Assembly (NCBI GenBank): GCA_020059605.1
Contig: JAGVBT010000012.1
Span: forward strand, 1 to 64,000
DNA: 64,000 bases
DNA from: Deltaproteobacteria bacterium
GTDB taxonomy: Bacteria > Desulfobacterota > BSN033 > UBA1163
Direction of reading: 5' to 3'
A program made the position numbers and the translations under genes. The first letter of the stretch is position 1, and every line of letters starts with the position of its first letter. The notes under the pieces are model-generated. The model had not been told where the DNA came from, did no database searches, and worked only from the letters and a program-made list of their open reading frames with translations. Shown one piece after another: positions 8,160 through 27,727 of the stretch.

Positions 8160-8184
8160 AGAGACTGTAAGAGGAACGTTTTAC

Positions 8185-8232
8185 TTGAGGATCGCTTCGC
8201 TTGAGGAGCGCTTCGTTTGAGGATGTAGGATC
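8185..8232. repeat. 16-bp tandem repeat, about 2.5 copies
   Basis: TTGAGGATCGCTTCGC / TTGAGGAGCGCTTCGT / TTGAGGATGTAGGATC. Confidence 0.75.
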
Positions 8233-8268
8233 GGTTTTGTTTAAGCGAAGGGGCCTTTGCCTCAAACC

Positions 8269-9546
8269 TCAAGTTCTCCGAAGGAGAACGCTCCTCCAAC
8301 TTGATCTTCGTCGTCTTTTCTTCGGCCTTTGGGGCCACCAGGGCAATAAATCAGAGGGGACCGCGTTGCGAAGGAGACGGGGGACCTCCTCCCCTTTCGC
8401 CCGAGCTTTCAGGCCAAAGAGAAGAACCGCCTCCTCGAAATATTTCTTCGTTCTCATCCTCCTGGGAATGATTCCCCGATCGATCGCCTTCTTCAAATAA
8501 GGTTGGGCCAACAGAATTAATGAAGTCATCTCTTTTGTTCCTTTTGGGACAGAGAAAGGGGTGAGGATATCCCGAATGACGAGCCGCATGGTCTGGGCCC
8601 GGTAGAAGTGTTGCTCCTTTTCACCCAGAAAAGGGTGCTCAGGCGTTAAAACCTTCAAGGCGGGAGTCAGAAAAAGGGCAAAGAGAATATAATCCAAAAC
8701 AGGCCTGCCTATTTTTACCAGCTCATCCACGAGACCGAAAAGCGTCAGGAATACTTCCCGGTCGCGGTCTTTGTAGGGATTTCGATCTCCGAAAACCCTG
8801 TCAAGGCCGGGAAAGAGGGAGAGGAGAAGGTCCGTCCGGAGTATTAAACTCAGAGAGGGTTTTGCCGCCCCGTCCTTCAAATCCCGGAGGAATTCATCCC
8901 TCAGGCGGGAGGGGGAGCACTTTTTAATCTCTTCCCGGCGCCATAGAATTGCCTGATAGGTCCGGTCATCTATGGAGAATCCTGTACGGGTGGCATGACG
9001 GATGACCCGGATCATCCGGACCGGGTCCTGCTGAAATCTTTCATCCGGGTCGCCAATGGTGCGAATGATCTTCCGTTGGAGGTCGGCCATCCCGCCGACA
9101 TAGTCGATAATTGAGAAATCCGCAATGTTGTAAAAGAGGCCGTTGATCGTAATGTCCCGGCGAAAGGCATCCTCCCTGGGCGTTCCAAAACTGTCTGCCC
9201 TTATGGTTTCACCCTCTTCGTTTTGTGTCTCCTCAAACTCGGACCGGCTTCGGAAAGTCGAAACCTCGATGATCTTCCGATCTTTAAAGAAGATATGGAT
9301 GAGCCGAAACCTTCGTCCGATGGCGCGGCTGTTTTTAAAGAGGGCGCTGATTTCGTGGGGATGGGCGTTGGTGGCGATATCGAAGTCCTTGGGGACCTTT
9401 CCGAGAAGAAGGTCGCGAACGCTTCCTCCAACGAGGTAAGAGGTAAACCCATGCCGGTGGAGGCGGTACAGAACCTTGAGCGCCTCCTCGTCGATCATCG
9501 ATCTTGAAATCGGGTGTTCCGGTCTTGGAATGACAAGCGGATTCAT
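8269..9546 (-). CDS. pcnB: Poly(A) polymerase / CCA-adding-type nucleotidyltransferase (PcnB-like)
   Basis: YLVGGSVRDLLLGKVPKDFDIATNA, RRDITINGLFYN, RMIRVIRHATRTGFSID. Start at MNPLVIPRPEHPISR. Confidence 0.9.
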   Translation of the reverse strand: MNPLVIPRPEHPISRSMIDEEALKVLYRLHRHGFTSYLVGGSVRDLLLGKVPKDFDIATNAHPHEISALFKNSRAIGRRFRLIHIFFKDRKIIEVSTFRSRSEFEETQNEEGETIRADSFGTPREDAFRRDITINGLFYNIADFSIIDYVGGMADLQRKIIRTIGDPDERFQQDPVRMIRVIRHATRTGFSIDDRTYQAILWRREEIKKCSPSRLRDEFLRDLKDGAAKPSLSLILRTDLLLSLFPGLDRVFGDRNPYKDRDREVFLTLFGLVDELVKIGRPVLDYILFALFLTPALKVLTPEHPFLGEKEQHFYRAQTMRLVIRDILTPFSVPKGTKEMTSLILLAQPYLKKAIDRGIIPRRMRTKKYFEEAVLLFGLKARAKGEEVPRLLRNAVPSDLLPWWPQRPKKRRRRSSWRSVLLRRT

Positions 9547-9911
9547 TTTGAGAGTGTGAGCGCCCCTGGAGTACAAACCTTGATACACTGAGGATTTCCC
9601 AGGCACAAATCACAATGGTAAGCGTTCCCGCCGAGAATCGTCAAGGCATCAAAAGGACATCTTTTTGCTCTTTTATAACTCCAAATAAATTTTTTCTTTT
9701 CCTGATGACGACCACCTTCCTCCCCATCGAGGCATTTCATTTCTCTACACTGACGGCAGAGAAGAGGCGTATTGAGGCTCGTATCGAGGTCGTCTTTTTT
9801 AATATGAATGGCTGATCTTCCTGAATTGATGATCCCTAAATGAAAAAGGGAACAGACCATTTCACAGAGATGACAGCCGCTGCATTTTTCTTTGTTAACC
9901 TTAATTTTCAT
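9543..9911 (-). CDS. 4Fe-4S ferredoxin-type protein, AOR-associated
   Basis: CSGCHLCEMVCS, CRQCREMKCL, CDLCLGNPQCIKVC; overlaps AOR and pcnB ends. Confidence 0.88.
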   Translation of the reverse strand: MKIKVNKEKCSGCHLCEMVCSLFHLGIINSGRSAIHIKKDDLDTSLNTPLLCRQCREMKCLDGEEGGRHQEKKKFIWSYKRAKRCPFDALTILGGNAYHCDLCLGNPQCIKVCTPGALTLSK

Positions 9912-11779
9912 CCGGACAGCCCAAGTTTCTTCAAGCTCTCTCTTTTCGGAATTCCATTCTTATCCCAACCGTGAAGCCGATAATACTCATCGAGCATCCC
10001 GTCAAATCCTTCACTTGAGATGACTTCCCCCTTGGCAGGCCCTGCCGGGATGGGTGTTTCAAAGTACCGTTTGGGAAGGGTATCATCCTTACGGGAGATC
10101 CCATCCCTGACCAGCATCATTCTCTCCAGGGTATAGATCCTTTCCCCGATGATTTTCAATTCTCTTGGAGTCATTGCAAGCCCCGTGGAAAGTCCGATCA
10201 GTTTAGAAAATTGCTGATACTGGGGTGCATGAGGGCTTGAAAAAACCGTGAGGAAACGGCAGAACCCCAGGGAATCGCATACGGCATTGAGAAGCTCATG
10301 CCACCAGACCATCCTCCCTTTGCCCGAATAGGATGAAAATTGGCTGCTCACAGGTCCGCCGTAAATCTTCTTCAGGACTTCCTCCGGAAGCCCAAGAACA
10401 TCGAGAGAAGGGCGGCTTCTCATGTGGCAGGCGCCCCGCGTGGAGGTCGCCATCCCAAGAGCAAAACTTTTAGGGAGACGTTCATCGGTCATCTCGATCG
10501 GGAAATTTTTAATGTCGAGGAGATAGTCTCTTGAGAGTTCTTTGAAGATCTTCTTGGCGAAAGCGCCCTCCGCTAAAATACTCCCAAAACCTTTGCGATG
10601 GGCAATCCGGTGAATGAGTTGGAGGATGGCTTTCCCATCTCCCCAATGCAATGGAGTTTCTGTCATTCCCCGATCGATAATTCCCCTCTGGTAGAGTTCC
10701 ATGGCCCAGGCGATGTAAGAGCCCGTGGAAATGGTGTCCATGCCATAACGGTTGCAGAGTTCCGTGGCATAGATGATATTTTCCAAATCGAGGTTTCCTA
10801 ACTTGGTTCCCAGCGAACCGATGGAGGCATATTCCGGCCCTTCGCCTTTTGTCCCCTTATATCTTCCTTCTGTTAGGGAATAGCGATGACGGCAATGGGC
10901 AGGACAACCGAAGCAAGAGAGCATTCCGGTAGAATAAGGTTCGAGCGCCTCGGCCTCCAGGGCATATCCCTGATCGCCGATGGAGGTGGATTGATTATTC
11001 CGGATGCTTAAAAAACCCATGGCGTTCGCATACTGGAAGAGCAGGGGGGTTCCATATTTCCCGAGGGCCTGAACCCACTTCGTTTCCATCAGTTTCTTCA
11101 ACTGCAGACGATAGGCCTTAAGACAGTTATTGGGGTCGGAAATCGTGATGTCCAGAGTCCCCCTGACGGCGACGGCTTTCAGATTCTTGGAGCCCATGAC
11201 AGCCCCCATCCCGGTCCTTCCCGCACTATTCTTCAAACCGGTACGAATGGCTGCATAACGCACCAGATTCTCTCCAGCCGGACCGATACAGGCGATTTGA
11301 ATCTTTTCATCTCGGAGCGCTTGCCGGATCGCCCGCTGCGTTTCAACGGTGTCGAGTTCTTTCCATGTTCCGGCATCTCGAATCTCTATCTGTTTGTTCT
11401 TGACCATGAGATAGACGGGTCTCCGGCTTTTTCCCGTGATGACCAGGTGGCCAAAGCCGGCCTTGACCAGCTCGGCTCCGAAATCTCCACCCATGTTCGA
11501 ATCACCCAGATGGCCTGATTCCGGCGATTTCGCTGTGATGTTGACCCTGGATCCAAACCCGATGGTTCCGGTAAGTAGACCGGCTCCGAAGATGAGAGGA
11601 TTTTCCGGGGAGAAAGGATCCAATTCCTGAGAATAGACCTTTGAGAGAAGATGCATATTGATCCCTCTTCCCCCAAGGAATTTTCTGCGGAGGTCCGAGG
11701 GAACAGGGGAGATGCGGACGGAGGCGTCGCTGAGATTGATGTAAGCAATTTTTCTTGAGAGGACCATTTTGATCTCCAT
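9908..11779 (-). CDS. aor: Aldehyde:ferredoxin oxidoreductase family (tungsten)
   Basis: AOR motifs: FLGGRGINMHLL, RTGMGAVMGSKNLKAVAVRG, SCFGCPAHCRH, CDSLGFCRF. Confidence 0.93.
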   Translation of the reverse strand: MEIKMVLSRKIAYINLSDASVRISPVPSDLRRKFLGGRGINMHLLSKVYSQELDPFSPENPLIFGAGLLTGTIGFGSRVNITAKSPESGHLGDSNMGGDFGAELVKAGFGHLVITGKSRRPVYLMVKNKQIEIRDAGTWKELDTVETQRAIRQALRDEKIQIACIGPAGENLVRYAAIRTGLKNSAGRTGMGAVMGSKNLKAVAVRGTLDITISDPNNCLKAYRLQLKKLMETKWVQALGKYGTPLLFQYANAMGFLSIRNNQSTSIGDQGYALEAEALEPYSTGMLSCFGCPAHCRHRYSLTEGRYKGTKGEGPEYASIGSLGTKLGNLDLENIIYATELCNRYGMDTISTGSYIAWAMELYQRGIIDRGMTETPLHWGDGKAILQLIHRIAHRKGFGSILAEGAFAKKIFKELSRDYLLDIKNFPIEMTDERLPKSFALGMATSTRGACHMRSRPSLDVLGLPEEVLKKIYGGPVSSQFSSYSGKGRMVWWHELLNAVCDSLGFCRFLTVFSSPHAPQYQQFSKLIGLSTGLAMTPRELKIIGERIYTLERMMLVRDGISRKDDTLPKRYFETPIPAGPAKGEVISSEGFDGMLDEYYRLHGWDKNGIPKRESLKKLGLSG

Positions 11780-11812
11780 TATAACAGAATCGTATTCAAA
11801 AGGCCTCCTCTC

Positions 11813-11955
11813 CCCCATGAGACTGTGTCATAATGCCGTTCATGCTTCGAGAACCTCACCACGAAGGGATAACGGCATGTTAAAATCAATCACTTAGCCG
11901 TTCGTCCTGAGCGTGTCGAAGGGCGAATGGCTCATTACGACACAGTCTCCATGGG
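11813..11955. mobile_element. MITE-like element, copy A (~16-21 bp terminal inverted repeats)
   Basis: GAGACTGTGTCATAAT (11819-11834) versus inverted ATTACGACACAGTCTC (11934-11949), 15/16 match; interior palindromes. Confidence 0.65.
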
Positions 11956-12059
11956 GAGAAGATGAAGGCGAGGGGATGGGGCTTAAATTGTTCTTGACAA
12001 TCAAACAGAATCGTCAAAGAATGTTATTAAGAGATTGGTTTCATTTCAAGGAGCTTAAA

Positions 12060-12254
12060 ATGAAGATGCAGGAGGTTAGAGAAAAGGCAAAAGTCTTAGG
12101 ATTGAAAAATACATTTGGGTTATCCAAATCGGAATTGATCCGGAGAGTCCAGAAAGCCGAGGGAAATTTCGATTGTTTTGGAACCGCAAAGGATTACTGT
12201 GATCAATTCCAATGCTGTTTCCGTGACGATTGCTTTCGCTTCGTAAAAGATTGA
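12060..12254 (+). CDS. Small SAP-like domain protein with C-terminal Cys cluster
   Basis: MKMQEVREKAKVLGLKNTFGLSKSELIRRVQKAEGNFDCFGTAKDYCDQFQCCFRDDCFRFVKD; RBS AAGGAG upstream. Confidence 0.65.
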   Translation: MKMQEVREKAKVLGLKNTFGLSKSELIRRVQKAEGNFDCFGTAKDYCDQFQCCFRDDCFRFVKD

Positions 12255-12367
12255 TTCTCAAGGTTGTGTCCGAATGTTAATGCAATCCCCGAATTCATTC
12301 CTTTTTCCTCGGTGGGAAGGCGGCTGCAGACGGCCTACTTCCGGGGTGAAATCAGTTTTTTAACCAT

Positions 12368-12958
12368 GTGAAAAGGAGTCTTTCAATGAGTTATTCATCC
12401 TATTTAAAACCACGGCATGAGGTCATTTCTGAAGAAGGGGTTGAGGGAATCGTTGACCTGGCAAACCTTAAGGATGATTCGAAAACTAAACTTGAGGCCC
12501 GGCCAAGAGATTTTTTAACTCTTACCTATCCCACAAACGATCTCATCAAGGCGCTGGAACAGATCAATCTGAGATTTTCTTCCGATAAGGAAGAGCATAA
12601 AAAGCGGTTCCAGGATACCTATCCCTTTTCTCCCTCCCTCATGGATATCATCCTCAAAAAGATTCCCGCCCAAGGTGGTTTTCAGAACGTCCGTGGAGCT
12701 TTATCCTTTCTCGGAAACATGGTCCGGCTGACGCATACTGCAAGTGATATCATTACCCCTGCTGATGCCTCTCTCAAAGACAAGGCTACTACAATAATGC
12801 TCAAGGACCTGGACCCAAGTGGAGACTTAATCAATCGGGCCAGTGAGAATATGGATGAATTGATTCCGAAGGCACCCCTATCCATTCAATTTGCATCCGC
12901 TGTCCTTCTTTATACCCTGACCGGCAGGGGAAGCGATATCGGCGCTTCACGAGAATAA
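12368..12958 (+). pseudogene. DUF499 / BrxC-PglY-like ATPase, N-terminal half; P-loop region absent, ends at in-frame TAA
   Basis: N-terminal-type segment (SSYLKPRHEVI...FLTLTYPTNDLIKALEQI) joined directly to a post-ATPase segment (RFQDTYPFSPSLMDII...FQNVRGALSFLGNMVR). No GxxxxGK[ST]. Same frame as 12959..14410. Confidence 0.6.
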
Positions 12959-14410
12959 TTGATTATGGACATCCTTTCACCATCTCTCGATATCAATGCT
13001 TTCGAACAGACATTGATGGGCTTCCAGAAGTATGCTTCCTACTTCTATCACCAGGAAAATCGGTATTATTTTGATTTAGAAGAGAATTCAGAGGCCAAGG
13101 TGGAATTTAAGTCCCTTCAATATTCAGACGACCAGGCCAGGGAAAAACTCTTCGAAATTCTGAAGACTGAAATTTTCAAAGAATCCGGGAACACCACGGT
13201 CTTCGTTTCGATCCAGCAGGTTCAGGAATCACTGAAGCAATTTGATAAAACCCGTCCCCGCTATGTCCTCACCGGAAGAAGATTAACACAGGAGGAACGA
13301 CACCTTATCTATCATGGGATGGACTATCGCAATCTTATTCTTCTGCTTGAGCCCAAAGATGACGCATTTCAACTTTCGACCGATAAAGATCTTCTTAAAT
13401 GGGCAAAGAGAATTCTTGCGGCGAAAGATCTTGCAGGAAGCACCAAAAAGACCGCACGTCAGGCTGATTATGAGCGTATTGCAAAGGGGGATCAAAACAA
13501 TGTCATAGACAGGATAAAGAAGGCAGGAATTGTTTTTGCAAGCTGGCAGAAGTATGGTTCCTCCCCCACTGAAGACCAAATAGAGCTGGAACCCCTCCCA
13601 GTGGATTTTTCGAAAGATAAGGTTCTTGAAAAGCTGAATCAGGAATATTTTCCACCTCTCACGTTTAAAGAGCATATGGAAAAAAGGCTTGAAGAAATAA
13701 TAGAACGCCTTGTCAAAGAGATTGATGCTGAGTATAGAGCTACCCTCGGTTTTCCTGTCCCTGTATCTTTAACAGCAGTTTCAAGGGGCATCCAGGAGCT
13801 TTGCAATGAAGGGCTTATCGGCATTCAGCACAGCGCTGGAAATTTCTGCCATGTCAAACCCAATCTTACAGAAACTGAAATATCTAATGCCCAAATAACG
13901 CCTCCTTTTGAAAAACCCCCCACTAAAGAAGCCTGCCCAAAATGTGGAAAGAAACCATGCGTGTGTCCTCCGGTATCACCGGAGACCTGTCCGGTTTGTG
14001 GTCAGCTTCCCTGTCAATGTGTCCCAACACCGGAGGTTGTTTGCCCAAAGTGTGGGAAAAAACCTTGCATCTGTTCAAAAAGAGAAAATATTTCTCTGGC
14101 AATAACGCCCCAGACAAGCATTGGTAGTCTTCGGCAGGAAACAGCCCATCGCCTTCAGCAACGTGAAGGGGCAGTGATAACCAAGGTGAGCTATAAGATC
14201 TTCTTTCAGAAGAACAACATCGGCGATCTGAGCACATTGCCCCCAGTGCTGAGGGGATCCCTGAGTGGTCAAGGTGATTTGACGGCTGAGATTACCATTT
14301 CAAAAAGTGGAAGATTTCCCAAATCTCAGGTCGAAACGCAGATTGAAAGCCTGCCTGCTCTTGCCGGAGCCGAGTACTCAGCCGATCTGGAAATTGAAGT
14401 TTTGTTGTAA
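12959..14410 (+). CDS. DUF499 / BrxC-PglY-like protein, C-terminal half with triple CPxCGxxPCxC cluster
   Basis: In-frame continuation of 12368..12958 after one TAA; C-terminal Cys-rich linker and a domain ending LAGAEYSADLEIEVLL. Confidence 0.6.
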   Translation: MIMDILSPSLDINAFEQTLMGFQKYASYFYHQENRYYFDLEENSEAKVEFKSLQYSDDQAREKLFEILKTEIFKESGNTTVFVSIQQVQESLKQFDKTRPRYVLTGRRLTQEERHLIYHGMDYRNLILLLEPKDDAFQLSTDKDLLKWAKRILAAKDLAGSTKKTARQADYERIAKGDQNNVIDRIKKAGIVFASWQKYGSSPTEDQIELEPLPVDFSKDKVLEKLNQEYFPPLTFKEHMEKRLEEIIERLVKEIDAEYRATLGFPVPVSLTAVSRGIQELCNEGLIGIQHSAGNFCHVKPNLTETEISNAQITPPFEKPPTKEACPKCGKKPCVCPPVSPETCPVCGQLPCQCVPTPEVVCPKCGKKPCICSKRENISLAITPQTSIGSLRQETAHRLQQREGAVITKVSYKIFFQKNNIGDLSTLPPVLRGSLSGQGDLTAEITISKSGRFPKSQVETQIESLPALAGAEYSADLEIEVLL

Positions 14411-14425
14411 TTCATTATTATAACC

Positions 14426-14449
14426 CCCTCTCCCTTTGATGGGAGAGGG
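14426..14449. repeat. CCCTCTCCC-N6-GGGAGAGGG palindrome
   Basis: Perfect 9-bp arms between the ATPase-like ORF and pglZ. Confidence 0.7.
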
Positions 14450-14479
14450 AGGGGTGAGGGTGGAAAAGGAACTTAAGAG

Positions 14480-15451
14480 ATGAACCAAACCCTTTTCAAC
14501 AAATTAATCGAACCTGGGCCGCGTCTTCCCTGGATCAAAGATTGGCTGCTAAATGAAGTGTGGAGCTGCGATCGCTATTCAAATAGCAGCAGGATTGACT
14601 TTCTTCACAAAGGCGAAGAAGAGATTAACCGTTTCGAGTCATTAATCTCCTCTGCTGCGGGTAGAATTTATGACGAGCTTTTTTCAACAACAGACCCGAC
14701 GAAGAGGCTTCTCAACGCCCTTTCTGACTCGGGGACAGCCGTTGTAGTTTTCGATGGTCTGTCTATAAGAGAAATCCCGATCATTTTAACTCTCGCAGGA
14801 AAATCTGGACTAAAAGTCTCCAATGTCGATTCTTCACTGGCTGCCTTGCCCTCAGAGACTGTTGATTTCATCGAGCGTGAATTGCCATGCGGTCGTATTG
14901 GACCTTCACAGTTGCAGGGAAGGAAAGAGTTGAAGGGGAAAGGGATTTCAGCCATATACCACCAGAACTATGGCCTGGCGCTTTCAGGGGAATATGAGGG
15001 ATCTCCACTGCTTGTCTGGTCCTCTTTCCCGGATTTGACATACAGGGACAGCGGAGCAAAGTTTGAAAACCATTTTGAAAATATCCACGTCCTTTTTGAG
15101 ACCGCCTGGGTAAACACCGTCCAACAGATTAAAGGGAAAAAAAGAATTATTGTAACCAGTGACCATGGATACATCTTTTTCGGCTCAGGAATGGATTTTC
15201 CAAGGACCTCTTCCTCCGAACAGAAGGAGTTGAATGATTATTTCGGAAACGACCGGAATGTCTCCTTGAGTGAAAAACCGCATCCGCCCAAAAGCGACGA
15301 TGTTTTTATAGATACTGTTCACAATGTGGCCATGATTAAAGGCCGGGTCAAGACAAAATCAACCGGAGATGCCGCCTCCAGACTTTACAAGCACGGCGGT
15401 CTTTCTTTAATGGAAATGGTAACTCCCTGGATTGAAATTCAATGTGTCTAA
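14480..15451 (+). CDS. pglZ: PglZ-domain protein (alkaline phosphatase superfamily), compact
   Basis: AVVVFDGLSIREIPIIL, IIVTSDHGYIFFGSG, HGGLSLMEMVTPWIEI, all typical of PglZ. Confidence 0.85.
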   Translation: MNQTLFNKLIEPGPRLPWIKDWLLNEVWSCDRYSNSSRIDFLHKGEEEINRFESLISSAAGRIYDELFSTTDPTKRLLNALSDSGTAVVVFDGLSIREIPIILTLAGKSGLKVSNVDSSLAALPSETVDFIERELPCGRIGPSQLQGRKELKGKGISAIYHQNYGLALSGEYEGSPLLVWSSFPDLTYRDSGAKFENHFENIHVLFETAWVNTVQQIKGKKRIIVTSDHGYIFFGSGMDFPRTSSSEQKELNDYFGNDRNVSLSEKPHPPKSDDVFIDTVHNVAMIKGRVKTKSTGDAASRLYKHGGLSLMEMVTPWIEIQCV

Positions 15452-15554
15452 GGCTTTATTTATGCTCCCATTAAATCATCTTACCTCAATGGGAGAAGGA
15501 CACGTGGAGGTGATTGATTCAGCCAAAAAGGAAGGATAAGAAAAGGATAAAAAA

Positions 15555-16619
15555 ATGATGACCCTTCGCCAGTTTTCCCTTAAACCAGAATCCATCCCAG
15601 CATCTACTTCTTGGTATTTAGCTGACTTAGGTGAAGCCCGCGGCAAACAGGATCTCTTCACAAAACAGTCTCCTCAGAAACTTAAAGTCTTGCGTGAGAA
15701 CGCAATGATTGAAAGTGCGGTCTCTTCAAATCGGATTGAAGGAGTTACTGTTGATCAAACCCGCGTTCGTACCCTCGTCTTCGGGAAACCTGTGTTGCGT
15801 GACAGGGATGAAGAAGAAGTGCGGGGTTACCGGGACGCACTCAAACTTATTCACGAACAAGGTAAGAGTCTACCTGTGTCAGAGGAAACTATTTTGAATT
15901 TCCATCGGTTGTGTCGTGGTGATATATGGGATGCGGGGAAATACAAAGAAAGAGATGGCGATATTATCGAAAGGTATGCCAATGGTCGGGAGCGGATAAG
16001 GTTCAAGCCTGTTGAGGCGACCCCAACCCCCCCCTTTATGCACGACTTGATCAAAATGTGGGACCACTGTATTTTTGAAAGATGGGTGCATCCTCTTATC
16101 GCTATGGCAGCCTTTAACCTTGATTTTCTTTGCATCCATCCATTTAGGGATGGAAATGGACGGGTATCGCGACTTCTGCTTTTGCTCCAATGTTATCATC
16201 TTGGATTAGAGGTAGGGCGCTATATCAGCATTGAGCGTTTAATCGAGCAGAATAAGGAACGATACTACGAGACATTAGAACAAAGTTCCCATGGTTGGCA
16301 TGAAGGCAAACATGACCCCTGGCCTTATGTAAATTATCTTCTTTATACTCTTAAAACTGCTTATCGAGAGTTTGAAGAAAGGGTTGGGCAGATTACTTCT
16401 CCCAAAGGCGCAAAAGCGGAAATGGTCTTAAATGCAATCCGATCTCAAAGGGGAGAGTTCCGTTTAGTCGATATTGAACGTGGCTGCCCTGGAGTGGGAA
16501 GGGAATGGATCCGGGCATTGTTGGCCGGTTTGAAGAAGTCTGGTGAAGTTAAATGTCATGGTAAAGGGCCCGCTGCAAGATGGGCCTACCAAGGGGAAAA
16601 GGGTAGTACCCTTAAGTGA
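15555..16619 (+). CDS. fic: Fic family AMPylase with N-terminal inhibitory motif (class II-like)
   Basis: HPFRDGNGRVSRLL active site; SSNRIEG matches [ST]xxxE[GN]; winged-helix-like C-terminus. Confidence 0.93.
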   Translation: MMTLRQFSLKPESIPASTSWYLADLGEARGKQDLFTKQSPQKLKVLRENAMIESAVSSNRIEGVTVDQTRVRTLVFGKPVLRDRDEEEVRGYRDALKLIHEQGKSLPVSEETILNFHRLCRGDIWDAGKYKERDGDIIERYANGRERIRFKPVEATPTPPFMHDLIKMWDHCIFERWVHPLIAMAAFNLDFLCIHPFRDGNGRVSRLLLLLQCYHLGLEVGRYISIERLIEQNKERYYETLEQSSHGWHEGKHDPWPYVNYLLYTLKTAYREFEERVGQITSPKGAKAEMVLNAIRSQRGEFRLVDIERGCPGVGREWIRALLAGLKKSGEVKCHGKGPAARWAYQGEKGSTLK

Positions 16620-16666
16620 GGGTATTGGTAAGGGTATAATCCCTTTTGTTACCTTCTCTATAACCG

Positions 16667-16817
16667 TCTCCCCTGGCGGCTGTGTCGTAATTACTGTTTT
16701 GTCACCATGAACTTGGTTCAGGGTCTCGTAACTATTTGATTCTATTAGATGCCGAAACAAGTTCGGCATGACATTTTTTACGGTTTCCCCTATTACGACA
16801 CAGTCTCCCCGGGGGAG
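16667..16817. mobile_element. MITE-like element, copy B
   Basis: CTGTGTCGTAAT (left) versus ATTACGACACAG (right) within longer inverted ends; same ends as copy A. Confidence 0.6.
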
Positions 16818-16847
16818 AGGATGAAGGTGAGGGGGACATTTCTTATC

Positions 16848-19800
16848 ATGAAAAATTCAAAAAGAGCAATTGAAGAGAGTTTTCCCATTGTTGAGATTAA
16901 CCGCCTTGCCGTTCCCGAGAGGAATGCGTTCAAACCTATCTACCAGATGCACACATGTTTTGCCCGAAGAGCTTCCTGTGTCTTCAGGGCTATCCTCCTC
17001 GGAGCCATGAAGCCTGCCGGGACCGATATCATGAACGAGTTTTATAAAGACCACACCCATGATCCCGACACCAATGGGGTTAGAATCCTTGATCCTTTTA
17101 TGGGAGGAGGCACGACAGTAGTTGAAGCGCTTCGCCTGGGTTGCCACGTCACCGGTATCGATCTCAATCCGGTGGCCTGGTTCATTGTAAAAACCGAAGT
17201 TGAACCTGTAAATATTGAAGATTTGAAAGCGGCCTTTAAGAGATTGGAAGAAAGACCTACCTCAAGCGGGAAAACATTAAAGGAAGAACTCCTGAGTCAT
17301 TACAAAACCGAGTGCCCCTGCTGTGGGGCAGGAAGAGAAGAAGCCGATATCATCTATAACTTCTGGGTCAAATCAGCCATCTGCACAAATCCCACCTGCC
17401 GGAAACCAGTCCCATTATTTTCGGATTACATCATTGCCATGAAATCACCCACTGTTCGTTACCTTTCGGATTACAAATGTAATTTCTGCAGCAAGGAATT
17501 CGACCTCGATATAGGGAGAGCATCACTCATCTCTGAAGAAAACCTGATGGCCAACAACCCGAGGGATGCGTCCGGAGACAGAAGAAGCAATAAACGCTGG
17601 GCTCCTTATAATCCGATTGAGAAAAATGTAAAGTGCCCATGGTGTTCTGAGACAATCATGGTGGGACCGGTCAATACGGTTAAAAAGGAAAAGAAGAAAG
17701 TACCATTGGCAGTCCTTTTCTGTCCACATTGCAGCTCCGTATGGCAATACCGGGGAACACTTCCGGATGAAGCCACCTGCCCGGTATGCTCAAAAAGTTA
17801 TTCACCGCATAAAGGAAACATTTCAGAAAAAGGAAGCTTTATCTGCCCTTCTTGCGGGATTAAGGATAAAGTCATAAATTCCATTAGGAAACTTCCTGAA
17901 GACCAACTTCTTCCAACCACGCCCTATGCCATTGAGGGTTACTGCCCTGAATGTGCGGGAGATGGAGACGCTCAATCTCCCCTCCCCTGGCGCCTGCCCG
18001 CCGAACAGGTTCTTTGGCAGGCGGGGGAGGGGATGAAGGGGAGGGGGAAAAAAGAAGTCTCTCACCTGTGCAACATAAGAGACAATAATGGGAAGTTTTT
18101 CAAGAAGATTACTCCTTCTGACTTGAAGAGGTATCAGGATGCTGAAAAGAGATGGGAAAAAGATAAAGGAGTTCTAAAATATCCAACGTCAAAAGTACCG
18201 GAAGGGGACAAGACAAAAACTGACCTGATCGGCCATCACTATGTTTATTGGCATCAATTGTTTAACTCACGTCAGATTTTACTACTTTCAACTTTGATAG
18301 AAGCCATAGATGCAGAGAATAATGGTATTCTCAAGGAGATGTTGTTGAGTGCATTCTTCCAGGCACTAAGAAATCAATGCATGTTGTGCTTTTATAACGT
18401 TACTGCTGGCAAACTAGAGCCCGCTATGTCTGGTCATGATTTTCGGGACCCAAATACTATCTGTGAAAACTCTGTATGGGGTACCAACTATGGTAGAGGA
18501 ACATTTTTAAGTATTATCGAGAAGATATTAGAAGGTAAATTATTTAATCTCGAACCTTTCGATACTGTCTATGAAGAGGACTTAAAAAATGGTTCTAAAA
18601 AAACGAAAAAATTCCCAAGCCAGGAGAAAATCGAAGGCAACCAAAATTGTTTTTTGTCTTCTTCAGATTCAAAGCAAATAGCTGATTATTTAAAAGGACA
18701 ACAATTTGATCTGCTCATTACTGATCCTCCTTACGCAGGAAATGTTAACTATTCGGAGTTGTCAGACTTCTTTTATGTTTGGTTGAGATTGGCATTAGTC
18801 AATAAATATAAATGGTTTGCCCCGGAATACACACCTAAATTAGAGGAGGTCATTCTTAACAAAACCAGGGGGCATGATTTGTCAAAATTTCAGGAAGGGT
18901 TATCAAAAGTATTTGCCGAGAGTTGTCACTTACTGAAGGACGAAGGTTTATTAGTCTTCACTTTTCATCATGAGGCTAACGAAGCTTGGGTGGCTGTTTT
19001 ACAGTCCATTTTTGATGCGGGTTTCTACCTTATTGCAGTATACCCCTACGAATCTGATGCCCGAAAAGGGGGGTCTTTAGGAGCCCAAAAGATTGCTTAT
19101 GATACCATACATGTCTGTGGGAAAAGGACTCAAACAGGAGAGATAAAACAGCGATCTTGGGCAGGGGTGCGTCAGGAGATACGCCAAAAAGCCCGGGAAG
19201 AGATTAAGGTGATAGAATCTGGACGATATGGAAAGGAAAAATTATCCCCGGAAGACGTAAATATCATCTTAATAGGGAAATGCCTTGAGTTATACAGCAG
19301 GCATTATGGCCAGATTGTTGATTATAAGGGAGAAGTGGTTCCTCTTCAGGAAGCCCTGACTGCCATCCGTATGATGGTGGAGCAGATTGTATCTGCCCAG
19401 CGTCCACTCCCATCGGAATTAGAGCACATTGACCCAATCAGCTACGTCTACCTCACCTGTCTATGTGACCGAAAAGAAATCCAGAGTGATGAAGTGCACA
19501 AGACGACAAGAGGCATCATGGAGCCGGAGGTGCTAATTAAGGCAGGCGTGATTAGGAAAGGCCGAGCCAAGCGCGGGAGAACTTATGAGGTAAAGCTTCC
19601 CGACGAAAGATACAAGGAACTTCAGAAACTCTTTCTTAGCACAAGAAAGACCATTGACCAGAAGTTTCTCTTTCCGGAGATGGAAGAGGCCAAATTCGAT
19701 AGAATACCGTTGGTCGATGCGCTTCATTATCTAATGGGCCTTGCCGGGGCCTCGGAGAATATCGTCCCGTGGTTGAATGAGTTCCGCCCAATCGTTCCGC

Positions 19801-19889
19801 AGATTCGGGTTTCACTCGAATACATGAGAGAGAAAAACCCCACCTTTCGGGAACCGATCAACAGAGTGCTCAGTTTAATCGAGGTGTGA
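16848..19889 (+). CDS. DUF1156 / COG1743 adenine-specific DNA methylase with Zn ribbons (PglXI-like)
   Basis: [31 protein letters not shown] (motif I), [25 protein letters not shown] (motif IV), many CxxC pairs. Start at [14 protein letters not shown], outside the MITE. Confidence 0.92.
   Translation: [1013 protein letters not shown]
17976..18047. repeat. GC-rich palindromic repeat inserted in frame in the methylase gene
   Basis: CTCCCCTCCCCTGGCGCCTGCC...GGCAGGCGGGGGAGGGGATGAAGGGGAGGGGG; resembles intergenic GGGGAGAGGATGAAGGTGAGGGG units. Confidence 0.7.
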
Positions 19890-19890
19890 G

Positions 19891-20313
19891 ATGCCTGGCT
19901 ATAAGATGTTTGAAGAGCGTTATCTAAATATTTACAAGGAGGACGGCATTGCTCCCAACGAAATCAAAATCGGTCTTCTCGACTTTCTCCGTGAGTTAAG
20001 AGGTGGAGCCGAAGGAATACCAAGATTATCTTCCTTTATGGTTATCGGTATTGATGAGGTCTTGTATCTGGCAGAAGATCGGGAGAAGATCTCGCTTTCC
20101 ATCCACAAAATCCTCCAATCAGCAGCAGCGACCCTTGAGCGAAAGATGGTCGAGGTGCAGATTTCCTGTAAAGGGAAACTTTTTAAGGCTGATTCTTTCT
20201 GGTTAGAATACCGGATGGGAAAATACCCCATGGATATTATTTTTGGCACTCCAACCAGACTTGAAATCCGGGGACTCCCTGTCTTCGCCACAGGCTTCAA
20301 TTTATCAAGTTAA
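19891..20313 (+). CDS. Uncharacterised protein encoded directly after the methylase
   Basis: 140 aa ORF starting 2 nt after the methylase stop. Confidence 0.7.
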   Translation: MPGYKMFEERYLNIYKEDGIAPNEIKIGLLDFLRELRGGAEGIPRLSSFMVIGIDEVLYLAEDREKISLSIHKILQSAAATLERKMVEVQISCKGKLFKADSFWLEYRMGKYPMDIIFGTPTRLEIRGLPVFATGFNLSS

Positions 20314-20315
20314 TA

Positions 20316-20467
20316 GTAGCACAGGCTTCCAGCCTGTGAACAGGTAGCACAGGCCTCTGGCCTGTGAATAAAAATGGTAGCCCAGGCCTCCGGCCTGTGA
20401 ATAAAAAGCATAAGAGTCAAACCCATGTCGATAACAAAATCAGGTGGCACAGGCTTTCAGCCTGTGT
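20316..20467. repeat. REP-like palindrome cluster upstream of RAYT (4 units)
   Basis: GTAGCACAGGCTTCCAGCCTGTG (20316), GGTAGCACAGGCCTCTGGCCTGTG (20343), GGTAGCCCAGGCCTCCGGCCTGTG (20376), GGTGGCACAGGCTTTCAGCCTGTG (20443). Confidence 0.92.
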
Positions 20468-21006
20468 CCTCTTTTAAGATTACCAGAAGAAACTTGCCTC
20501 ACTGGCAAGAACCTGAAAGGATATACTTCATTACCTGGCGTTGTGCAAAAGAACAGGGTCTCTCTCCAGAAGAACGCACAACAGTGTTGGAAGCAGTTCG
20601 ATACTGGGATAATCGTAAATGGACAGTCTATGCCGCCGTCGTCATGCCCGACCACGTACATGCGTTGGTTCAACCCCTTATTCAGAGTAAAGGAGGAACT
20701 TTCGATTTGGCTGAGATCTTACATAGCGTTAAAAGTTTTAGCGCTCACCAAATAAACCGGCAGAGAGAAAGACATGGGTCTATTTGGCAGGATGAACGGT
20801 TTGATCGCATTGTGCGTGACGAGATGGAATTTAAGGAAAAATGGGAATATATCAGAAATAATCCGGTGAAAAATGCCTTATGCGAAAGTCCGGAAAAGTA
20901 TCCTTGGCTTTATGAGAGAGCCTGGTGGCACAGGCCAGAGGCCTGTGCCACCAGAAAAGTGTCTTTTGGTTTTATTTTTAATAGAGGCCTTAATCTTTCA
21001 AGTTGA
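20425..21006 (+). mobile_element. RAYT: REP-associated tyrosine (Y1/HUH) transposase ORF
   Basis: YFITWRCA, VVMPDHVHALVQPL (HUH), SIWQDERFDRIVRDEMEFKEKWEYIRNNPVKNALC; bracketed by REPs. Confidence 0.93.
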
Positions 21007-21071
21007 TTTAAAGGTGATAGCGCGGGCCTCTGGCCTGTGAATAGATTGGTAGCACGGGCCTCTGGCCTGTG
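20923..21071. repeat. REP-like palindrome cluster downstream of RAYT (3 units)
   Basis: TGGTGGCACAGGCCAGAGGCCTGTGCCACCA (20923), GATAGCGCGGGCCTCTGGCCTGTG (21016), TAGCACGGGCCTCTGGCCTGTG (21050). Confidence 0.9.
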
Positions 21072-21093
21072 TCATTTGAATTTTGGTAACTAA

Positions 21094-23883
21094 ATGGAAC
21101 TTAAGGAGTATACAAAAGTTAAGGTCATCTATCGGCCGGAACTTGGATCAGGAGAGGTGCTCCGGGTAGAGGAGCGACATGGGGAATACCTGGTCGATGT
21201 CGTCTTTGAGAAAGACGGTAAGAGATTCCTTGAGACTTTCCCCCAACATCTCCTGGAACCTGTACCGAACCTCTTACAGCGATTCCAGAAAGGTGAGTCT
21301 GACGATCCTTTAGATTTTTTTTTAAAAAAGTTAGCCTACCAGTTTCCCCTCGAAAATTCCGGCGGCAAACTCTCTAACAGCAGGACGGACCTTCTTCCCC
21401 ATCAAATCCTATTAACGCATCAGGTTGTAAATGCGACGAGACGAAAATTTCTGGTTGCGGATGAAGTTGGTCTTGGAAAGACCATTGAAGTGGGGATGAT
21501 CATAAGGGAACTTTTATCACGAGGAGACGCAAGGCGGATATTAATCGTTTGCCCTGCAGGTCTGATCGAAAACTGGCGAAATGAGATGAGAGACTGCTTC
21601 CGCATCTATTTTGACATCTTCGGCCAGGATTTCACCGATGCAAACCCTCTTGCCTGGGAACGGCATAACCTGGCGATTATTTCAATTGATACGATCAAAA
21701 AACTCCAGAGATTGGAAAAAATGGCCCCAGGGCCGGATTGGGATCTCATTGTTTTCGATGAGGCCCATCATCTCACACGAAAAAAATATGGGAAAAAGAT
21801 CGATATCACTCAGAATTATCGGTTGGCGGAGAGGTTAAAGGGAAAGACGAGAGATCTGCTATTTCTTACCGCTACACCTCATCAAGGGAATGCCTATCAG
21901 TTCTGGTCATTGATTCAACTCTTAGATGATCAACTCTTTGAAGCGCCTGAAGCCATGCAAGAGAATAGAGGCCTTTTAGGTCGGGTAATGTTCCGGAGAA
22001 CCAAAAGAGAGGTAACGGATGCCCAGGGAAACCCAATCTTTATGCGTAGGCAGGTCACCACACAGAAATTCCAGCTTTCTATTCGGGAACAGAGATTTTA
22101 CGATAAACTGACCGATTACCTCAAAGAAGGATACGATGCCGCAGGTTTCGGACAGGATAAGACCACCAAGCAGCAACGGGCCGTTGGGTTTGTCATGGCT
22201 ACTTTCCAGAAGATCATGTCATCCAGCCCGAGGGCTATCAAACAGGCGCTCCGACGGCGTTTGATTGCGCTTTATGCCAGAAAACAGATGGCCCTGGAAA
22301 GCGGATTCCATGGAGGACTGACGAAGGCAGAGATATCTTCAAAAATCGTCCAATATCAAGAATTAATGCGGAGCGTGGTTGCCGATCTGCTTTCATTCAC
22401 CAGGGGCAGGATAGATTACATTGAGGCTGATGCCTACATTACAAGCTTGAAACAGCGACTTAAGAAAAGGCCGAAATTTGAAGAAGAAGTGACCCATTGG
22501 GCGCTGGATGCTACAGAAAAAGAAGACGAGGTCATCGAAGCTAAAGCCAATATCCCAAATGAGGGAGAAAAGGTAAAGGAGCTAATCGACCTGGTAGACG
22601 ACCGTGCAGATAGAAAATATGATACCTTAATCCGTGCCATCGAACAGTTCCGACGGGAAAACCGGGACGAAAAGATGCTCATATTTACCCAATATCTTGA
22701 GACCCTGTATTTTCTCCAGAAGGAACTGGGGAAATATTACCCCCCTGAAAAAATAGCCATTCTCAAGGGAGGCCCTTTGGAGGATAAGATCGCATCCTGT
22801 GAATCCTTCTGGGATGAAAACGGCGCTCAATTTCTTCTATCGACCACAGCCGGAGGAGAGGGGATCAACCTCCAGGTCTGCCGCATTTTATTCAACTACG
22901 ATTTGCCCTGGAATCCCATGGCAGTGGAACAGCGTATCGGCCGAATCCATCGATATGGCCAGACCGAGACAGCTCAGGTTTATAGCCTCGTAGCTGAAGG
23001 GACCATTGAAGAGAAGGTCTATGCGATTCTTGAAGAGAAACTTCTTGAAATCGCCCAAACCATTGGCAAGGTCGACTCTGTAACAGGTGAAGTAACTGAA
23101 GATTTTAGATCAGAGATCCTCGGATTTCTCGGCTCGTCAGCAAATTATCAAGACCTCTATAAGGAGGCGCTCGTCAATCGAGACTATAAACGAACCGAAA
23201 AAGAGATTTCTGAAGCGATCCTCAAGGCGAAGGAAGCAAGCGAGGCGTTGCGGCAACTCACCCAGGATCTCCTAACTTTTAATCTGGAACAATACAAAGA
23301 GCTTGAGGGGAAATTTACCCTCGATGATTTAAGGTGTTTTACGGAAAAGGCGATTTTAAGATTGGGGGGTAGTTTTATCCCTTCAGGAGATATTGTCCAG
23401 ATCACCACTCCTCCAGCACTAAAAAAGTATTCAAATGTAGCCTCCCGATATGAAAATGTGACTTTTTCGCGGAAGATAGCAACCAGAAAGAAAAATGTTG
23501 ACTTGCTTGGGATAGGTCATCCCCTTATGGATGCTTTGATTGATTATTTGAAAGGGGAAGGGATATCTGGAGAGGTATTGATCGCAAAATATGATGCAGT
23601 CCCATCAAACCGTTCGGTACGATATCTATTTATGATAGATTTTGAAAATGGAACCAAAAGAGAACTCTATAAGAAATTTCTGCTCGATGGAGCCGAACTC
23701 CCAGAGGACCTGGTTTTTCTGCAAGACAGCATGTGTAAGGGTGAAACCCCTATTAACATCCTTTCGGATCTTGAAAGTAAAGTAGAGATGCTAATCAGAA
23801 ATGAAGAAGCCAAAATCCGGTCCACTTATGATGGGGTTATCAACATCAGGAATAAATGTGTGGGAATACAACTGATAAATTGA
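21094..23883 (+). CDS. SNF2/RapA-type helicase (BrxHII / DrmD-like)
   Basis: DEVGLGKTIEVGMII (Walker A), VFDEAHHL (DEAH), FLTATPHQGN, LLSTTAGGEGINLQ, PWNPMAVEQRIGRIHRYGQ. Confidence 0.93.
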   Translation: MELKEYTKVKVIYRPELGSGEVLRVEERHGEYLVDVVFEKDGKRFLETFPQHLLEPVPNLLQRFQKGESDDPLDFFLKKLAYQFPLENSGGKLSNSRTDLLPHQILLTHQVVNATRRKFLVADEVGLGKTIEVGMIIRELLSRGDARRILIVCPAGLIENWRNEMRDCFRIYFDIFGQDFTDANPLAWERHNLAIISIDTIKKLQRLEKMAPGPDWDLIVFDEAHHLTRKKYGKKIDITQNYRLAERLKGKTRDLLFLTATPHQGNAYQFWSLIQLLDDQLFEAPEAMQENRGLLGRVMFRRTKREVTDAQGNPIFMRRQVTTQKFQLSIREQRFYDKLTDYLKEGYDAAGFGQDKTTKQQRAVGFVMATFQKIMSSSPRAIKQALRRRLIALYARKQMALESGFHGGLTKAEISSKIVQYQELMRSVVADLLSFTRGRIDYIEADAYITSLKQRLKKRPKFEEEVTHWALDATEKEDEVIEAKANIPNEGEKVKELIDLVDDRADRKYDTLIRAIEQFRRENRDEKMLIFTQYLETLYFLQKELGKYYPPEKIAILKGGPLEDKIASCESFWDENGAQFLLSTTAGGEGINLQVCRILFNYDLPWNPMAVEQRIGRIHRYGQTETAQVYSLVAEGTIEEKVYAILEEKLLEIAQTIGKVDSVTGEVTEDFRSEILGFLGSSANYQDLYKEALVNRDYKRTEKEISEAILKAKEASEALRQLTQDLLTFNLEQYKELEGKFTLDDLRCFTEKAILRLGGSFIPSGDIVQITTPPALKKYSNVASRYENVTFSRKIATRKKNVDLLGIGHPLMDALIDYLKGEGISGEVLIAKYDAVPSNRSVRYLFMIDFENGTKRELYKKFLLDGAELPEDLVFLQDSMCKGETPINILSDLESKVEMLIRNEEAKIRSTYDGVINIRNKCVGIQLIN

Positions 23884-24270: not shown

Positions 24271-24936
24271 ATGAAAGTATACAAGAAGAAAATTGCTGAT
24301 CGCTATGATGTGTCTGAATTGGTGGATGCCCAATTTGAATCAGGTTCCCGTCGCCGAGTCTTAAAGAATTTGCTTGGAATTAGGCGTAAGCGTGAAATGG
24401 ATCGTCTGGAGGGAATAGAACAACTCCGTGCTCTTCGTGAATTGATAAAGATCTATGGGAAAAATCACCGATTCACCGCTGCTGATATATGCCGAATTCA
24501 TAAAATATGGTTAGGGAACATATACCCTTGGTCAGGAAAATACCGGCGGGTCAACCTCACCAAGAACAACTTTACATTCGCCGCCGCAAGCCAGGTAGGA
24601 CGGCTGATGGAAGAACTTGAAAAGGGGCCTCTTCGTGAGTTCACCCCTTGCAGGTTCGATACGATTGAAAAGACAGTCAAAGCCCTGGCCGTGGTTCACA
24701 CCGAACTGGTGTTGATTCATCCATTTCGCGATGGAAATGGGCGTGTTGCCCGGTTAATGACTACGCTGATGGCATTACAGGCAGGGTTACCGCCCTTGGA
24801 TTTCAGTGGCCTGAAGGGGGATAAAAGAAAGGCGTACTACGCGGCGATACGAGCAGGTCTGGATCGGGACTACAAACCGATGGAGGATGTCTTCAGCGGC
24901 GTGATCCGGGAGACTTTGCGGAAACGTAGGACCTAA
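24271..24936 (+). CDS. fic: Fic family protein, class I-like (no internal inhibitory helix seen)
   Basis: HPFRDGNGRVARLMTTLMALQAGL; KIWLGNIYPWSGKYRRVNL. Confidence 0.92.
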   Translation: MKVYKKKIADRYDVSELVDAQFESGSRRRVLKNLLGIRRKREMDRLEGIEQLRALRELIKIYGKNHRFTAADICRIHKIWLGNIYPWSGKYRRVNLTKNNFTFAAASQVGRLMEELEKGPLREFTPCRFDTIEKTVKALAVVHTELVLIHPFRDGNGRVARLMTTLMALQAGLPPLDFSGLKGDKRKAYYAAIRAGLDRDYKPMEDVFSGVIRETLRKRRT

Positions 24937-25111
24937 TGTGTTTCTCAGAGGTAGAAAGTGATTTCCCCAGCTCCTCCCAATCTAAATGGACGCCTTCGAT
25001 TGCTGTTGAAGAGACGACTGTTTTGGCAAGTAGCGCTTCTCGCCGTTTTGAATCTCTGAGATAAGAATTCGTATTAATCAGGGAGTCTTTACGCACACTT
25101 TTTATTAACAC
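24893..25111 (-). CDS. Candidate Fic antitoxin-like protein carrying an inhibitory motif
   Basis: SYLRDSKRREALLAKTVVSSTAIEGVHLDWEEL; STAIEG fits [ST]xxxE[GN]; convergent with fic. Confidence 0.6.
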   Translation of the reverse strand: MLIKSVRKDSLINTNSYLRDSKRREALLAKTVVSSTAIEGVHLDWEELGKSLSTSEKHIRSYVSAKSPGSRR

Positions 25112-25639: not shown

Positions 25640-26332
25640 TTAGAACGATAAAGCTGAAGTGACGGCGTGGCAACGGCAGGCCGTGCTGATCAGAATGAGG
25701 CGGTCGGAAGAGCCTGCCTTTTTTATTTCCCTCACTTTTTTCAATAAATCTTCAGATAAATATCCTCCTATTCCTAATCTCAGCTGCTTGCTCCGGATGA
25801 CCTTCGATTCAAAAGGACCGCGTAAATCTTCGAGGATCTTATAAAGAGATTTCCCCCGCTTCCCTCTTGTAACAGTGCAATATCGAGCGGGTTCCGGGCA
25901 ATCCTCCGGGCAGAGGAAATCGGCAATACTTGCGTAGAGGTCTCCTCCTTTGCCTCTCATGGGGTTAGGTAATCCTGTGAAGTCAGGGACCTTCTCCCTT
26001 TTTCCACCCAATGGTTTTAATTGAGAGAGAATAAATTGGAAAGCGAAATGGAAAGGCACTGCAGGAATGATATAGTCAAATAGAGGTCTTTTTGATAAAG
26101 ATCGGTTTAAAAATAACCGCCCATCACAGAGGGCAGTTTCTACTGGAAGATGAGAGAATATTTGAAGGAGTCCTTTTTTCTTAGCGACCATTGCGATCGA
26201 TTCCAATGCTGCTTCAGAGAGGATTGTCTCAGGTTCATTAGAAAATGATTCCTCGAAGAGGCTCAACGAAGAGAAAAACGCCAGGCACAGTGCCAACCGG
26301 GCTGGGGAGGATCGGGAGGACATCCTATACAT
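25640..26332 (-). CDS. Paralogue of 27080..27727 with divergent N-terminus
   Basis: Shares IPAVPFH.AF.FILSQLKPLG, FLCPEDC.EP, GPFESKVIRS.QL and STACRCH.VTSALSF with 27080..27727; no GxGxxG-type N-terminus. Confidence 0.6.
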   Translation of the reverse strand: MYRMSSRSSPARLALCLAFFSSLSLFEESFSNEPETILSEAALESIAMVAKKKGLLQIFSHLPVETALCDGRLFLNRSLSKRPLFDYIIPAVPFHFAFQFILSQLKPLGGKREKVPDFTGLPNPMRGKGGDLYASIADFLCPEDCPEPARYCTVTRGKRGKSLYKILEDLRGPFESKVIRSKQLRLGIGGYLSEDLLKKVREIKKAGSSDRLILISTACRCHAVTSALSF

Positions 26333-27027
26333 TCGGTCTGAATGCGTGAATCGACGGTCTCCGCAAACGTGCGATATTCAATAATACTGCCAGACTTGCA
26401 TGGATAGTTTTCCAATCCTTTAAGCTGTCGGGAGGTCTGGACGCGGCACTCGATCATTCGAAAAACAAAAGAACCTGTTTTTTCTTCCACGATATCCTGT
26501 TTGTTGATGCGTGCATATAAACGGAATTGAAGCGCCGTTTTGAGAGCCTCCAATCCTCCTTGCTCCGGCAGGCCCAATAGAGTTTTGATGCGGTAGGCTT
26601 CATAGGGTGAAAACCGGGTCCAGCAGGTATCATTGCATCGTTTCGCATCAAACATACCAAATTTATTTTCAATAGCCTGAAACCAGACGCCATCATTGGC
26701 CAACCAATTGAGGCAGAGGGCGTCCAGGAGTTCCTCCAGTTGTTTTTCCTCCATCCGGTAGAGAACCGCCGGCAGTCCATCCTGCAATTCAATGTTGAGG
26801 ATTTTTGCAAATCGCTTTGCCTGGATTGCAAAGCTCGTTTCTGCCACCTCTTTTTCTATCTCGAGGGCAGCCTTCATTCCGAACTGGTGTTCCACCTCCT
26901 TGAGCCAATAGCCATAATGGACCATGGTCCGGCGGAGCGCATCTGCCATCCAACGGATTAAAAACTCTTTATTCGGTTTCGGCGAATTTCCCTCGGGCCG
27001 ATCGAGTTCATTTTTTTCACCTTTCAT
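26263..27027 (-). CDS. DUF6125-like Cys-containing protein
   Basis: CRVQTSRQLKGLENYPCKSGSIIEYRTFAETVDSRIQTECIGCPPDP. Confidence 0.65.
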   Translation of the reverse strand: MKGEKNELDRPEGNSPKPNKEFLIRWMADALRRTMVHYGYWLKEVEHQFGMKAALEIEKEVAETSFAIQAKRFAKILNIELQDGLPAVLYRMEEKQLEELLDALCLNWLANDGVWFQAIENKFGMFDAKRCNDTCWTRFSPYEAYRIKTLLGLPEQGGLEALKTALQFRLYARINKQDIVEEKTGSFVFRMIECRVQTSRQLKGLENYPCKSGSIIEYRTFAETVDSRIQTECIGCPPDPPQPGWHCAWRFSLR

Positions 27028-27079
27028 ATCTCTTGACTCCTCCCGTCTGAAATTTGCTCATCGGAATAGATTCCTCCGG

Positions 27080-27727
27080 CTAAAACGATAAGGCCGAGGT
27101 GACCCCGTGGCAGCGGCAGGCCGTGCTGACCAGAATGAGGCGGTCGCTATTTTTTTTCTTCTTCAATTCCTTCGTCAGGTTGATCAACCTCTCAAAGCGG
27201 AATCCTCCCACCCCCTGTCCCAATTGAAGGCTGCGGATCACTTTTGATTCAAATGGACCCTCCAGGTTCATCAACACCCTGAAGAGAGGTTCGGAACGGT
27301 GCTCGCCGGTCACGGAACAATGAAGGGGCTCGGAACAGTCTTCGGGACAAAGGAAATCGGCGAAACTCGTATAGAGGTCGCCCGTTCGGCCCACCGAGGG
27401 ATTGGGCAACCCATGGAGAGGGGGAATCTCGCCCCTTGTCGCTCCCAGGGGTTTGAGCTGTGAAAGAATAAATTCAAAGGCCAGGTGAAACGGGACCGCG
27501 GGAATGACCTGATCGACCCCTTGATCCTCGGATAAAATGTGACGCAGGTAGGCAATGCCATCGCATGCCTTGGTCAAGACCGGAAGGTGAGCCACCCTCC
27601 GGAGCGCCCTCTTGCTTTGATCGACGACGATGATCTTCGAATGCGGATTCTTTTGGAAGAGTGTTGCCGCCGCCCGGCTCCCGAAACGGCCGCATCCGGT
27701 CACAAGGTAGGTCAGGGTCGGCTTCAA
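27080..27727 (-). CDS. NAD(P)-binding Rossmann-like protein (TrkA-N-like N-terminus)
   Basis: LTYLVTGCGRFGSRAAATLFQKNPHSKIIVVDQSK. Confidence 0.65.
   Translation of the reverse strand: MKPTLTYLVTGCGRFGSRAAATLFQKNPHSKIIVVDQSKRALRRVAHLPVLTKACDGIAYLRHILSEDQGVDQVIPAVPFHLAFEFILSQLKPLGATRGEIPPLHGLPNPSVGRTGDLYTSFADFLCPEDCSEPLHCSVTGEHRSEPLFRVLMNLEGPFESKVIRSLQLGQGVGGFRFERLINLTKELKKKKNSDRLILVSTACRCHGVTSALSF

Follow-up and report, generated by a model that had tools for sequence, protein, structure and literature searches.

What kind of locus is the gene cluster headed by a damaged ATPase gene in the 64,000-nucleotide stretch of deltaproteobacterial DNA analysed here (the window), does it still work, and why is a Fic gene nested within it? 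The original prediction placed the cluster with BREX type 3 and took it to be either a decaying locus or a variant with Fic as an accessory effector. The genes that it listed are all present on the + strand, in the order and at the positions that it gave. BREX-Related (BR) systems were separated from BREX only in 2026 (PMC12839542), and we consider it very probable that the locus is a recently broken operon of the Type-3 BR class described by Rakesh & Krishnan 2026 (PMC12839542), with a nested SoFic-like Fic as a second defence.

The whole cassette occupies 12332..23883 (+), that is, 11.5 kb. An intact copy, L006, was found on the Deltaproteobacteria MAG contig VGSF01000001.1 (positions 6961-19492), and the same kind of locus is present in genome G140. 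In blastn, window and L006 are colinear over exactly 12332-23883 at a DNA identity of about 91-92%, and similarity ends at the start of the ATPase gene and at the end of the helicase gene; at the protein level, the PglZ copies are 94% and the small ORFs 97% identical. G140 belongs to a family different from that of the window genome, and the pcnB products of the two are 49% identical. An operon identity of about 92% beside a pcnB identity of only 49% therefore indicates that the cassette moved horizontally, and that the 11.5-kb operon was acquired as a whole. In G015, which is of the same family as the window genome, the Rho_N ORF and the gene corresponding to 26263-27027 are adjacent with nothing between them, so the window carries inserted DNA of roughly 13-14 kb. 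On either side of the 26263 gene lie two paralogues, the genes at 25640 and 27080 (window 25640-27727); since G015 has only one of them, the duplication may have arrived with the island.

This insertion also includes a second Fic gene (24271..24936, +; Pfam 4e-19; PADLOC PDC-S04), which the original prediction had counted as part of the locus. It is unrelated to the nested Fic and adjoins the cassette from outside, beyond the segment common to L006. A 72-aa antisense ORF (24893-25111, -) overlaps its 3' end and contains SSTAIEG, a sequence resembling the Fic inhibitory motif; this ORF has no Pfam match and is possibly an antitoxin or a Fic fragment.

The Type-3 BR parts seen in the cassette are a DUF499 ATPase, a standalone PglZ of 323 aa, a DUF1156 methylase, an SNF2 helicase free of a nuclease, and a small ORF. 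The same gene set and order are shared by the window, L006, L008, L022, L029, Ensifer, Aminobacter, Ca. Tenderia, and enterobacterial plasmids, so the core genes do co-occur elsewhere, as had been expected of a BREX-like core. In each of these loci a short ORF fills the place of the iSTAND gene, which belongs to the core locus in 82% of known Type-3 BR systems (PMC12839542). All reading frames of the cassette other than that of the ATPase are open.

The PglZ (14480..15451, +; PADLOC PglZ E 6e-6) is a putative phosphodiesterase/nuclease-type effector whose alignment to PglZ profiles is confined to their C-terminal third. Damage as the cause of its shortness was ruled out, because 320-340 aa is normal for the class; the protein keeps every residue that is invariant among eight relatives, and its active-site residues are intact. 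The small ORF (19891..20313, +), 140 aa long, has homologous ORFs at the corresponding site in L007, L008, L022, and L042 (in G094), and its position and conservation make it a candidate iSTAND protein, a BrxB/BrxF-like sensor. HMM scans of it at loose thresholds gave no match, hhalign comparisons with the BrxB of L025 and with a 166-aa ORF of L029 gave no signal, and PDB sequence searches with the PglZ and the small ORF returned nothing useful. Its AlphaFold model, with few sequences in the alignment, has a pLDDT of 49, and Foldseek gave no iSTAND proof. A RAYT (REP-associated tyrosine transposase) gene (20425..21006, +; NF047646, 105.5 bits, cut-off 80) is inserted between the iSTAND candidate and the helicase, at the same site as in L006. 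In the SNF2/RapA-like helicase (21094..23883, +; 929 aa), domain searches found helicase domains only and no nuclease domain. Its last 170 residues (23370-23883) are 75% identical to L006 and the rest 97%, which suggests a fast-evolving C-terminal domain.

The methylase (16848..19889, +; PADLOC HmaB 8e-33; NCBIfam DUF1156_antiphage 5e-34) belongs to the DUF1156 N6-adenine DNA methylases with Zn ribbons. The start that is conserved lies at 16848, and the ORF may open further upstream, at 16749. An internal recognition insert and Zn fingers are present, as in Type-3 BR. At 16941..16961 (+), the HKW motif reads HTC, while K and W are kept (HKW or SKW) in 6 of the 6 other BR methylases compared, and these two changes point to decay. 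The middle of the protein, from approximately 18000 to 19110 (+) and including the target-recognition region, shows a drop in amino-acid identity to L006, to 52% (42-69%), between an N-terminal part at 93% and a C-terminal part at 96% (flanks 92-100%). The independent pair L022 and L031 shows the same arrangement, with flanks 82-98% and the middle 21-66% identical. A stretch of the L031 middle reaches 84-86% identity to L006 and L007, two loci of one recognition type, the rest being much less similar. These alignments indicate that the central segment, target-recognition region included, has been exchanged between loci in two pairs.

The ATPase had been described as damaged, and comparison with the intact L006 protein of 903 aa (PADLOC HmaC 4e-12, DUF499 3.5e-11) proves it. 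The 5' part of the DUF499-type pseudogene (12368..12958, +) is followed in the same frame by a 3' part with a wHTH/RRM-type region (12959..14410, +; HmaC E 2e-5; open frame, 89% aa identity to L006), with an in-frame TAA codon (12956..12958, +) between the two. Relative to L006, the window copy is missing 630 bp (210 codons), in frame, which in L006 lie between the 10-bp repeats GACAAGGAAG and GATAAGGAAG; GATAAGGAAG remains as the deletion scar at 12584..12593 (+). The TAA stands 122 codons past the deletion and is two base changes away from the lysine codon of L006. Nine relatives all keep Walker A (G70/G72/K73/S74) and Walker B (D178/E179) unchanged, and both motifs fall within the deleted 630 bp, so the predicted product has no catalytically competent AAA+ core. 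The lesions are known from one assembly, a MAG. A second ATPase copy was sought elsewhere in the genome, and none was found. When substitutions after the stop are polarised with an outgroup, the window branch has 24 nonsynonymous (N) and 33 synonymous (S) changes, and the L006 branch 21 N and 30 S. As the counts on the two branches are equal and there is no excess of replacements on the window branch, the ATPase loss, and with it the decay of the locus, is dated by these counts as recent. Of the two readings that the original prediction offered as alternatives, both are correct, as the Fic-bearing variant is intact in L006 and decayed in the window.

Headless ATPases also occur among 34 mostly conjugative enterobacterial plasmids (L065, L071, and 32 others), which carry a Type-3 BR operon with SIR2-HerA. 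The ATPase is full in 8 of the 34 and truncated in 26, which are without the N-terminal 77 or 213 residues. In 25 of the 34 it begins at nucleotide 640 of 2766, without Walker A or B; these 25 share one breakpoint and are one event that spread. In a single plasmid it begins at nucleotide 233, adjoining an IS6-family transposase. PglZ, SIR2-HerA, and methylase are unbroken on the truncated-ATPase plasmids. Taking plasmids and window together, the N-terminal part of the ATPase has been lost at least three times independently, with the downstream genes open. One of the 34 operons sits near blaKPC-2.

The nested Fic gene (15555..16619, +; Pfam Fic 1e-14; PADLOC SoFic 1e-34) encodes an AMP-transferase of the SoFic family and lies between PglZ and methylase. 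SoFic is a tested single-gene abortive infection defence (PMC12249575). The suggested role as an accessory effector is plausible. The catalytic HPFRDGNGR and the N-terminal inhibitory SSNRIEG are intact, and both motifs are found in 7/7 homologues. The C-terminal ~65 aa (window 16420-16619) are 45% identical to L006 and the remainder 93%, so this region was either replaced or is evolving very fast. Both G008 and G014 have an intact Fic next to a PglZ stump (77 or 39 residues), and lack any ATPase relative or full-length close methylase. In G014 (L025, G014:C238), the PglZ stump, the intact Fic, and a 172-residue methylase piece adjoin SIR2, BrxA, BrxB, and BrxC, as if BREX had replaced BR. Near relatives of the nested Fic are found outside BR loci in G013, with a type III-like methylase gene and an HTH-type regulator as neighbours, and in G002. 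These solo relatives weaken the case for Fic as a BR-specific component, and the link between the two may therefore be opportunistic; independent usefulness accounts for the survival of Fic in relics equally well as a BR-linked role.

What occupies the PglZ-methylase junction differs among loci. Nothing is inserted there in L007, L008, L029, L081, Ensifer, Aminobacter, Ca. Tenderia, or haloarchaea. The window and L006 have Fic at this place, L022 and L031 a PIN gene (in L031 with a small putative antitoxin ORF ahead of it), the 34 plasmids SIR2-HerA, G267 a PDC-M47A/B (AAA) pair, and G094 a set made up of Ppl, GajA, GajB, and an AlbA-type ATP-binding protein. The G094 locus (L023/L042, G094:C16) has a complete Gabija plus Ppl within a BR-like operon, and its helicase is unusually short, at 531 aa. 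Turnover of cargo at this junction is established at the level of gene content. Other places are also used: ahead of the helicase there is RAYT in the window and L006, DUF433-DUF5615 in L007, and a four-helix-bundle-like ORF in L080, and in L081 (9621-11365) a HEC-01-like pair, an AAA ATPase with a DUF4276 protein, separates the methylase from the iSTAND candidate. Counted in 13 lineages, the insertions at the four junctions number 0, 5, 1, and 3; by our own calculation p is about 0.2, which is suggestive, not significant, and a statistical concentration of cargo at one junction was dropped for this reason. Auxiliary nucleases in BREX and BR loci have been described (PMC12839542); the words Fic and SIR2 are absent from the main text of that paper.

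The lesions and the nested gene can be read in other ways. The locus might be a functional, downsized variant, in which the C-terminal part of the ATPase restarts just past the stop (TAATTGATTATG) and the other proteins carry on methylation or defence with no AAA+ motor. Every downstream frame is open, the ATPase past the stop bears no mark of relaxed selection, and the 26 nearly identical plasmid copies with a headless ATPase persist with their other genes unbroken. However, no intact relative departs from the Walker A and B residues, one plasmid truncation abuts a transposase and the other 25 share one breakpoint and hence one event, the two changes in the methylase motif point to decay, and the time since the loss may be too short for relaxed selection to appear; we therefore regard this variant as improbable. 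It is more improbable still that the deletion and the stop are assembly or sequencing errors in an intact operon. The lesions do come from one metagenome-assembled genome, but the 10-bp repeats are far below usual assembly k-mers, the deletion is clean and in frame, and it is accompanied by an independent nonsense codon needing two base changes and by two missense changes in the methylase motif. A recently broken Type-3 BR operon remains the reading that we prefer.

As for the Fic gene, there is a considerable possibility, if somewhat short of an even one, that it is a toxin gene, selfish or mobile, with no relation to BR function, which landed between PglZ and methylase and was kept for its own sake. 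Members of the same family are found in further defence neighbourhoods (G013, G002) and persist in BR relics, L007 and L008 are without Fic, and the insertions are not significantly uneven among junctions. Against this, defence modules (SoFic, SIR2-HerA, Gabija, PIN, PDC-M47) recur as cargo of the junction, beyond what random genes would give. A bolder proposal is that the junction is a dedicated slot, that the modules swapped into it are abortive effectors of a second line, coupled to the BR core and possibly firing when the core is inhibited, and that this cargo, not the restriction core, outlasts ATPase loss, as in the window and on the majority of the enterobacterial plasmids; we put it forward tentatively and consider it rather unlikely as a whole. 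For the preferred reading, a broken Type-3 BR operon with Fic as its second defence, we infer the biochemical steps of the intact form, all of them, from the domain families as follows. The DUF1156 methylase would mark self DNA by adenine methylation, at a motif that its exchangeable target-recognition region dictates. Scanning for unmarked invading DNA would fall to three proteins, namely the DUF499 AAA+ ATPase, the SNF2 helicase, and the iSTAND-like small protein, and PglZ would nick or degrade such DNA. Fic, restrained by an inhibitory helix of its own, may serve as a back-up by AMPylating a host target and aborting infection. As the window ATPase has neither an AAA+ core nor an unbroken frame, the first defence layer is probably off here.

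The locus and its relatives show how the BR class evolves, by whole-operon transfer, exchange of the recognition region, and turnover of nested modules at one junction. Headless ATPases beside intact siblings make it testable whether BR restriction and methylation need the AAA+ motor, and whether nested effectors are autonomous or core-dependent. What deserves further attention is the pattern of nested modules together with the headless ATPases.

Among known systems, DISARM is similar in its helicase, as the SNF2 core matches DrmD (NF038317) with 356 bits, under the cut-off of 610; in contrast to DISARM, the window is without DrmA, DrmB, and DrmC, and its methylase is of a different family. 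Hma (HmaA helicase, HmaB methylase, HmaC ATPase), which is Type-1 BR, has a homologous ATPase, methylase, and helicase, and HmaB and HmaC are the best PADLOC matches here. But Hma has a C-terminal PD-(D/E)XK nuclease on its helicase and no PglZ, whereas the window has PglZ and the small ORF, and no nuclease was found.

With BREX type 3, the locus has in common a PglZ domain, a COG1743-type methylase, an SNF2 helicase related to BrxHII, and a large AAA+ ATPase. The prediction of a BREX type 3-like core did not hold, although the absence of BrxA- and BrxF-like genes that came with it did: among the locus ORFs nothing matched BrxA and no BrxF was recognisable, and the ATPase gave matches to DUF499/HmaC but none to BrxC (DUF6079). 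The PglZ of BREX type 3 has about 800 aa with N-terminal domains, and that of the window is under half this length. Missing BrxA, no BrxC match, and a short PglZ rule out membership of BREX type 3.

The nested gene resembles SoFic as a class-2 Fic with an N-terminal inhibitory motif (S/T)xxxE(G/N), a catalytic HPFx(D/E)GNGR, and a C-terminal domain. SoFic of E. coli has a reported antitoxin, AS1, of 47 aa, encoded downstream; the window Fic differs in sitting within a BR operon, and no AS1-type gene was recognised in the window, nor is there room for one in L006, where the Fic-methylase gap is 70 bp. Compared with Type-3 BR as described (PMC12839542), the window has a pseudogenised ATPase, Fic between PglZ and methylase, a RAYT insertion, and an iSTAND gene that is only a candidate. 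The likeness to Type-3 BR lies in the DUF499 ATPase, the standalone PglZ, the DUF1156 methylase with its internal recognition insert and Zn fingers, the helicase without a nuclease, and the small gene at the iSTAND position.
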